The position numbers and the translations under genes were made by a program. Positions 18,448 through 19,955 of a stretch of DNA of 40,918 nucleotides are shown in pieces. Source of the stretch: a virus; the IMG/VR virus record IMGVR_UViG_3300033180_000003, positions 1 through 40,918 of that record, one strand, 5' to 3'. Position 1 is the stretch's first letter, and every line of letters starts with the position of its first letter. The notes below the pieces were generated by a model, which was given only the letters and a program-made list of their open reading frames with translations, did not search any database and was not told the DNA's origin.

Positions 18448-18626
18448 CAGGACGCGGCCTTGGTGCCCGAAGCGCGGATCTGGTCGATGACTGCCGGGTC
18501 GTACTTGTAGCGCCCGCTGGGCAGCTTCACAGCGTCGATGTCGCCCTGCGTCGCCCAGCGAGTGAGCGTTCGTACGCTGACACTGAGCCGTTCGGCTGCT
18601 TCCTTGGGTGCCAGTAGTGACGACAT
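18447..18626 (-). CDS. Xis/Cro-like helix-turn-helix protein, 59 aa
   Basis: A compact MerR/excisionase-type winged helix: LLAPKEAAERLSVSVRTLTR (helix-turn-helix), then WATQGDIDAVKLPSGRYKY (wing). It is the first gene of the leftward early operon and diverges from the repressor, the place of a Cro or excisionase gene. It probably represses the repressor promoter and/or sets integrase directionality. Its predicted transcript starts at the ATG itself: TTGACG, 17 bases, TAGAAC, then TGACGCATG. Confidence 0.75.
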   Translation of the reverse strand: MSSLLAPKEAAERLSVSVRTLTRWATQGDIDAVKLPSGRYKYDPAVIDQIRASGTKAAS

Positions 18627-18716
18627 GCGTCAGTTCTACGCCATATGCCGAGTGGCGTCAAGCGTCAATTGTCGTGTCTTGACGTGGATCATGGTTTGGT
18701 GCACATTTGACGCATG
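18624..18716. promoter_or_regulatory. divergent, mirror-symmetric leaderless promoters and operators of the lysogeny switch
   Basis: Rightward (repressor): TTGACG at 18679-18684, 17 bases, CACATT at 18702-18707, then TGACGC and ATG. Leftward (Xis/Cro): TTGACG at 18656-18661, 17 bases, TAGAAC at 18633-18638, then TGACGC and ATG. Both start codons are thus embedded in TGACGCATG (18708-18716 and, inverted, 18624-18632), and both transcripts would begin at the start codon. TGACG-type hexamers recur five times in both orientations and may double as operator half-sites. An outer inverted repeat GTCAAG/CTTGAC overlaps both -35 elements. Confidence 0.65.
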
Positions 18717-19088
18717 ACAGCAGATCCGGCGCAGCAGCCCTGGGTTATGACGGATGAGACGTTCGCCGCCCGGCTGGCCTTAGTGCGCAATCGAATGCAG
18801 TGGAACGCGAAGGAAGCGGCGCTCGCATGCAGCTTGCCGCCCAGTAGTTGGCTGAACTGGGAGGAAGGCATGATGCCGCGCAACCTGAAAGAGGTCGCCT
18901 GGGACATCAGCCAGCGGACCGGCTGCGATTTCGGATGGCTCGCGATCGGCGTCCCGTCCGGCCCGGTAGACTCCCCTTTCAGTAACGCGCCGTTAGCTCA
19001 ATTGGCAGAGCAGCTGACTCTTAATCAGCGGATTTCTGGGCCACTCCACTACGCCGACCGGGTTGTCCCCTTGCGCCGAGCGGCTTGA
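18714..19088 (+). CDS. rep: immunity repressor with attP inside its 3' end (virally encoded long form), 124 aa
   Basis: Residues about 16-80 form the Cro/CI-like helix-turn-helix of actinophage immunity repressors: FAARLALVRNRMQWN, KEAALACSLPPSSWLNWEEG, RNLKEVAWDISQRTGCDFGWL. From codon 92 on, the coding DNA is the 5' half of a tRNA-Lys gene, read as APLAQLAEQLTLNQR. The last 18 residues follow that match and end RRAA, resembling an ssrA-type degradation tag. In BPs/Brujita-type phages such a long form is unstable, and integration at attP removes the tag to give the active repressor; I infer the same here. The start is the ATG of a predicted leaderless mRNA, with no ribosome site. An internal ATG at codon 12 is an alternative. 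Confidence 0.8.
   Translation: MTADPAQQPWVMTDETFAARLALVRNRMQWNAKEAALACSLPPSSWLNWEEGMMPRNLKEVAWDISQRTGCDFGWLAIGVPSGPVDSPFSNAPLAQLAEQLTLNQRISGPLHYADRVVPLRRAA
18987..19031 (+). other. attP: attP core: 5' half of tRNA-Lys(CTT) inside the repressor gene
   Basis: The 45 bases read as tRNA positions 1 to about 44: acceptor strand GCGCCGT, TA, D-stem GCTC/GAGC with loop AATTGGCA, and a perfect five-pair anticodon stem GCTGA/TCAGC around CTCTTAA (anticodon CTT). After CAGCGG the match ends: no T arm and no 3' acceptor strand exist. An integrase gene starts 60 bases downstream. Crossover in the anticodon loop of host tRNA-Lys is the expected use. The unusual point is that the phage carries the 5', not the 3', half of the tRNA gene. 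Confidence 0.8.
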
Positions 19089-19091
19089 TCC

Positions 19092-19955
19092 GTGTCCGTA
19101 GTCGTCCACGTCGCGTTCGGTAGTGCCACCCTTCAGCCCGTGCTGGGGATCGAAACCGAATGGGCAGGCGCAATCGATCTCTGGGTTAAGTGGCTGACCG
19201 CCGCGCAGCGCCCAGCGACGACGATCGGGCTGCGGGTGTACCAAATCCAGCGGTTCGCGTTAGATCACCCGGATGCCGACCCGTTCGGGCTGACCCTCGA
19301 TGACCTCATCGGGTGGCTCGCCGCATTCGAGTGGAAGCCGCAGACCCGCCGTTCCTACCGATCCGCCCTTCGGGTGTTCTGCGCGTGGGCACACGCCACC
19401 GGCCGGGCCTCAGCGAACCCGGCAGCTCTACTACCGGCAGTCACCCCGCCGCGGGGGAAGCCACGTCCGGCACCCGACGACGTCCTCAGCCAGGCGATGA
19501 CCGTCGCCACGGACCGGGTTCGGCTGATGCTGCGCCTCGCCGCCCACGCAGGTCTACGCCGCGCAGAGATAGCGGCCGTCCATCGCGATGACCTCGAACT
19601 CGACGCGGACGGCTACATGCTGCGCGTAGTCGGGAAAGGTGGGACGGTGCGGCTCGTGCCCGTCCTCGATGACCTCGCGATGGCGATCCGCATGTCTCCC
19701 ACCGGGCCGATGTTCCCCGGCCGGATCGACGGCCACCTATCCCCCCGCCGAGTCGGCGAGCTGATGTCCGAAGCGCTCCCCGGACACTGGACCGCGCACA
19801 CGCTGCGGCACCGCTTCGCGAGCAAGGCGTACGCCGCCGAACGCGACATCCTCACAGTCTCCGCCCTACTTGGGCATGCCTCCGTGACGACGACGCAGAT
19901 CTACACCGCGATCCCGTCCGGGGCGTTACGCAACGCTGTCATCGCGGCAGCTTGA
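19092..19955 (+). CDS. int: tyrosine integrase
   Basis: Site-specific recombinase that joins attP to the host tRNA-Lys gene. The N-terminal SAM-like core-binding domain spans residues about 25-115, and the catalytic domain follows. Active-site residues are Arg in HAGLRRAEIA, Lys in VGKGGTVR, His-x-x-Arg in HTLRHRFAS, His in LLGHASVTTTQ and the nucleophile Tyr in IYTAI. At 287 residues it is a short integrase with little or no arm-binding domain visible, as in BPs-type phages. It ends AVIAAA, an ssrA-like C-terminus that may cause rapid turnover. The GTG start lies three bases after the repressor stop, so the two are co-transcribed before integration and separated after it. Confidence 0.92.
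   Translation: MSVVVHVAFGSATLQPVLGIETEWAGAIDLWVKWLTAAQRPATTIGLRVYQIQRFALDHPDADPFGLTLDDLIGWLAAFEWKPQTRRSYRSALRVFCAWAHATGRASANPAALLPAVTPPRGKPRPAPDDVLSQAMTVATDRVRLMLRLAAHAGLRRAEIAAVHRDDLELDADGYMLRVVGKGGTVRLVPVLDDLAMAIRMSPTGPMFPGRIDGHLSPRRVGELMSEALPGHWTAHTLRHRFASKAYAAERDILTVSALLGHASVTTTQIYTAIPSGALRNAVIAAA

Follow-up and report, generated by a model that had tools for sequence, protein, structure and literature searches.

A probable integration-dependent immunity switch in a phage whose repressor gene contains the 5′ half of a tRNA-Lys(CTT) gene in sense orientation

The window analyzed here is an entire virus record of 40,918 bases (IMGVR_UViG_3300033180_000003), whose minus strand holds the terminase, portal, and tape-measure genes. 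Three genes are of interest, namely a divergent pair encoding a small MerR/HTH_17 protein and a repressor (Rep), and an integrase gene (int). The features of this locus are as follows.

18447–18626, minus strand: small MerR/HTH_17 protein of 59 residues, divergent from rep (PF12728, E 1e-8; PHROG 66, excisionase and transcriptional regulator, E 2e-8)
18627–18713, no strand: divergent control region with candidate operators (an inverted repeat and TGACGC elements)
18714–19088, plus strand: immunity repressor gene (rep); viral form of 124 aa with an N-terminal HTH domain and the C-terminus PLRRAA
18967–18972, plus strand: TAGACT, a speculative candidate -10 element of the rebuilt tRNA, 14 nt 5′ of tRNA nt 1
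18987–19031, plus strand: attP common core, the tRNA-Lys(CTT) 5′ half (nt 1–45), on the rep strand, codons 92–106
19032–19085, plus strand: viral Rep codons 107–124, which integration would remove; they contain a conserved VPLR motif and finish in -AA (candidate degron, ssrA-like), based on comparison with the Babsiella and Brujita tails
19092–19955, plus strand: tyrosine integrase of 287 aa (Pfam PF00589, E 1e-15) with the C-terminus AVIAAA (candidate degron)

Judging from its domain matches, the small MerR/HTH_17 protein is likely excisionase/Cro-like. Between the divergent genes lies an imperfect 16-nt inverted repeat (18657–18672/18703–18718), and of 28 TGACGC sites across the window, four fall in 18627–18713; the repeat and these elements are candidate operators. 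A consensus promoter was sought in the control region 18627–18713 and was not found. The rep gene stops at 19086–19088 and int starts with GTG at 19092, a gap of 3 nt, which bears out the spacing given in a first-pass annotation of this DNA. A tyrosine integrase gene downstream of rep and co-directional with it, together with a divergent xis/cro-like gene, is a layout feature of integration-dependent immunity (IDI), a simple genetic switch proposed as an ancestral form for temperate phages.

Another feature of IDI, an attP core within the repressor ORF, is also present. The core (GCGCCGTTAGCTCAATTGGCAGAGCAGCTGACTCTTAATCAGCGG) occupies 18987–19031 in frame 0 of the rep ORF (18714–19088), and the first-pass reading of the 45-nt 5′ half of tRNA-Lys(CTT) as rep codons 92–106 is correct to the base. 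Past the core follow the last 18 Rep residues (107–124), ISGPLHYADRVVPLRRAA. ARAGORN predicts no complete tRNA at the core locus, which indicates that the core is a true tRNA half, and the blastn scores (E 8e-20 with a small set of tRNAs and 9e-14 with all phages as the database) argue that its match to tRNA is not due to chance. Frame 0 is the only sense frame open through the tRNA-Lys 5′ half, as frames 1 and 2 contain stops, and it is the frame used both in the window and in a second phage with this layout (L093, described below). Among the viral contigs searched, the exact core occurs in the window record alone.

Rep has no match in Pfam, and matches the PHROG 2328 transcriptional repressor family over residues 6–88 (E 3e-15). 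Its tblastn matches are proteins annotated as immunity repressors in phages of Gordonia, Mycobacterium, and Arthrobacter (E 1e-19 to 9e-14). Among its homologues are the repressors of Babsiella, Schnabeltier, EricDab, and Brujita, the latter one of the founding IDI phages, and that of the prophage prophiGD53-3, for which the record annotates attP within the repressor. Rep is therefore homologous to repressors of known IDI phages. A scan of the viral contigs with the window Rep alone recovered no relatives; the scan succeeded when an alignment of nine Rep proteins was used as the query in place of the single sequence. In this alignment the N-terminal HTH region is conserved and the tails are variable, with an -AA end in most (AAA, WAA, and HAA among the homologues); the PLRRAA end of the window Rep is ssrA-like by sequence only. 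Int is closest to the integrases of EricDab, Emperor, and Rahul, with up to 54% identity to that of Gordonia phage EricDab, and is homologous to IDI integrases of small Gordonia phages that enter the same tRNA-Lys gene via its 3′ half. It ends in AVIAAA, and -AA ends are also found on several of the relatives' integrases. Such ends are short and could have arisen by chance.

The host tRNA-Lys genes, with which the first-pass annotation had suggested comparison, do carry the core. It was identified in 120 of 399 genomes of one order, with 45 of 45 positions identical in six bacterial genomes (G at nt 6) and 44 of 45 in 114 more (A at nt 6). Each genome is listed with it once, and none of the 120 matching host genomes contains a second copy.

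Two lysogens of related phages serve as natural comparators (G432 C1:2212300–2258000 and G723 C11:391500–429500). Their integrases are related (46–48% identity) and both prophages lie at tRNA-Lys(CTT), with the 3′ half antisense; the truncated repressor runs antisense into the tRNA gene and stops near the anticodon arm. In G432 an attR remnant precedes int, and the 5′ half of the host tRNA is identical to the window core at 45 of 45 positions. A lysogen of the flipped type, that is with the sense 5′ half, was found neither in 12 prophage loci obtained with the Rep scan nor among 23 integrase matches in the 399 genomes, and likewise neither among the 120 core-bearing genomes nor in family searches, so the flipped attL and attR are known in silico only.

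Joining the window rep in silico to host tRNA-Lys yields a Rep of 112 aa ending in LTLNQRVRGSSP, compared with 124 aa in the viral form. This product is predicted for each of the six hosts that match the core exactly and for most of the near-matching ones, and its stop codon is the TGA at tRNA nt 64–66, so that Rep is shortened through a stop codon in attL, as in IDI. The first-pass annotation had expected integration to remove the last 18 residues, with their -RRAA end, and to leave a protein ending near residue 106; the loss stands, and the length has to be revised to 112 aa because the host tRNA adds six residues. ARAGORN predicts no tRNA at attP, tRNA-Lys at attB, tRNA-Lys(ctt) at attL, and none at attR. 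In these products, attL thus carries an intact tRNA-Lys behind rep, separated from the host promoter, and in attR the host tRNA promoter is directed into int. Because there is no obvious ribosome-binding site 5′ of int and the rep remnant at attR has no start, int translation may drop in the prophage even with more int transcription. For a dedicated tRNA promoter within rep, a sigma-70 scan was empty and no significant promoter was identified. TAGACT in the window and TGGTACGTT in L093 are suggestive, yet their likeness to host tRNA-Lys promoters is not significant (uncorrected p ~0.1 for the window against the hosts with the closest -10, 0.05 as the best of five, and 0.03 as the best for L093).

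The orientation of the core was assessed by matching the 3′ ends of rep genes, as well as att sites, to a tRNA set; relatives without a tRNA match, such as Schnabeltier, Elesar, and phiT45-1, were not counted. All 17 related viral rep genes with a tRNA half contain the 3′ half antisense to rep (Babsiella, Brujita, EricDab, Twister6, McGonagall, GMA5, Rahul, Emperor, SallySpecial, Liefie, Typha, Hedwig, MichelleMyBell, Fireball, Fishburne, Bunker, and L054). The same layout is present at five prophage attL sites (L043, L044, L048, L049, and L051, the last also being viral record L019) and, upstream of int, at eight prophage attR sites (L161, L162, L166, L167, L174, L176, L180, and L181). In L175 a sense 3′ half adjoins int, which is not the flipped layout. 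The window, with its sense 5′ half, is the sole such case in the compared set and departs from the usual antisense 3′-half layout, which is not defining for IDI. Where rep contains the usual antisense 3′ half, the host tRNA is rebuilt under its own promoter.

A scan of the viral contigs for the tRNA-Lys 5′ half returned 36 stretches, in only two of which, L088 and L093, the 3′ half is absent. L088 is a viral contig with a lone 5′ half outside any repressor (4706–4744, plus strand). In L093 (IMGVR_UViG_3300043594_000015), the 5′ half lies in sense orientation within frame 0 of a gene for a 128-aa repressor ending in SNAVAA, and an integrase follows; L093 is the only other phage with the flipped layout in the collections searched. 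Its Rep is unrelated to the window Rep outside the core. Its integrase is 45–48% identical to the window Int over the N-terminal two thirds only; the catalytic C-terminal part was sought in L093 and not found, and in the integrase beside the L093 repressor (3–521, minus strand, and L221) similarity is gone past approximately residue 190. As this catalytic part is missing, the gene may be broken, rearranged, or mis-assembled, and the phage is possibly defective.

The window contains one further tRNA-like gene (20944–21017, minus strand), which ARAGORN cannot name. It is 81% identical to tRNA-Arg(CCG), but its anticodon stem is mispaired and its anticodon loop is 6 nt long (CTCGAA). An intact tRNA-Arg(tct) occupies the corresponding position next to int in the Arthrobacter phages Elesar (L006), Popper (L012), and Ryan (L127). 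In prophages L050 (~6276–6316) and L052 (~6273–6313), repressors of the window family abut the 5′ part of tRNA-Arg(tct), and an intact tRNA is not predicted. These two prophages and the relatives bearing tRNA-Arg(tct) possibly combine IDI with tRNA-dependent lysogeny.

We interpret the window as an IDI switch of the BPs/Brujita kind with its attachment core turned round, a reading to which we assign a probability of about 0.8. The IDI interpretation offered in the first-pass annotation gains support from the homology of Rep and Int to those of IDI phages, from the anatomy of the locus, and from the related prophages at the same tRNA-Lys with truncated repressors. In the viral form, rep and int would be read rightward as a single unit; the -AA signals at the C-termini of Int and of the 124-aa Rep would probably lead to degradation of both, which would make lytic growth the default. 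Int would recombine attP with the host tRNA-Lys(CTT) gene, probably in the palindromic anticodon stem-loop. With a core that is the tRNA 5′ half and runs in the same sense as rep, the rep-side attL would consist of rep codons 1–91, the tRNA 5′ half, and the host tRNA 3′ half. The prophage Rep of 112 aa (...NAPLAQLAEQLTLNQRVRGSSP) would be stopped by the UGA at tRNA nt 64–66 and would lack the degron, and a complete tRNA-Lys at the 3′ end of the rep frame would have to rely for its transcription on the rep promoter or on a phage promoter located within rep. The int-side attR would contain no tRNA, and the host tRNA promoter that it gains would point into int. The regulatory outcome, that is which Rep form would be active in immunity, is taken from BPs, in which an ssrA-like tag leads to degradation of the 136-aa viral repressor and the prophage form, of 103 aa, is both stable and active (PMC4557955).

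Whether the flipped layout forms a class in which the lysogen's sole tRNA-Lys(CTT) comes from transcription of the rep unit or from a phage promoter within the gene seems to us an evenly balanced question. If so, repressor supply would be tied to an essential tRNA, the rep stop would lie inside that tRNA, and the host tRNA promoter would be handed to int. From the flipped layout follow two predictions that known systems lack, namely a chromosomal tRNA in lysogens that depends on phage transcription and a prophage int read by a host tRNA promoter. The comparison with related phages shows that related integrases can enter a single tRNA attB in either orientation, perhaps owing to its palindromic anticodon stem-loop (GCTGA-CTCTTAA-TCAGC).

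Alternatively, a standard tRNA attP might have fallen by chance in the rep frame, in which case the phage would integrate there and the truncation of Rep would have no regulatory role. Sense frame 0 of tRNA-Lys is naturally open and a rep ORF could drift into it, but the order of rep, core, and int, the divergent xis-like gene, and the -AA ends of Rep and Int match proven or annotated IDI systems with homologous proteins, and the same layout occurs in L093 with a non-homologous repressor; we regard such a coincidence as improbable. It is more doubtful still that the core is a decayed or laterally gained tRNA fragment with no attachment role, the phage integrating elsewhere or never. The odd second tRNA-like gene nearby and the failure to find a lysogen of the window phage in the genomes searched would fit such a fragment, whereas the core is identical at 45 of 45 positions to living host tRNA genes, is placed between rep and a full-length integrase, and has related integrases lodged at the same tRNA-Lys gene. 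A third alternative, tRNA-dependent lysogeny, in which a tRNA encoded by the phage compensates for the host tRNA disrupted by integration, might be suspected from the tRNA-like gene ~1 kb downstream of int, but was rejected as very improbable because its cores are ~8–17 bp long and its phage tRNA is of the same isotype (PMC10865867), whereas here the core is 45 nt with a tRNA-Lys predicted in silico at attL, and the extra tRNA is of the wrong isotype, being tRNA-Arg-like with a defective anticodon loop.

The IDI principle itself is not new, having reportedly been known since 2013, with Broussard 2013 said to be the original paper; on the basis of the sequence comparisons, we call the flipped sense 5′-half core a new form of it. 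The parallel with the BPs/Charlie/Brujita-type mycobacteriophages drawn in the first-pass annotation holds, although the reversed tRNA half and orientation had been overlooked. Like the window, BPs, Charlie, and Brujita (clusters G, N, I, and P) have attP in the 3′ end of rep, followed closely by int, and a divergent xis/cro-like gene, and this group shares with it many -AA C-termini as well as homologous Rep (Brujita and Babsiella) and Int. These phages have the tRNA 3′ half as their core, in antisense to rep, whereas the window has the 5′ half in sense.

Of the Gordonia phages for which an attP is predicted, roughly half resemble IDI phages, and a 37-bp tRNA-Lys attP is common to four small Gordonia phages (PMC5559632). 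The small Gordonia phages EricDab, Emperor, Rahul, McGonagall, and GMA5 use the same tRNA-Lys(CTT) attB and have the closest integrases (50–55% identity), but hold the other tRNA half in the other orientation. IDI is also found in prophages of M. abscessus and Bifidobacterium (PMC8092301, PMC6109161). For the tRNA side of the window, the nearest published parallel is the M. abscessus MabA1 prophages, which involve tRNA-Met and are not among the IDI systems of that paper (PMC8092301). As in the window, integration into a tRNA gene in tRNA-dependent lysogeny ties the viability of the lysogen to phage sequence; in that system the core is short and the phage supplies a complete tRNA of matching isotype, whereas the window combines a 45-bp core with a rebuilt tRNA (PMC10865867).
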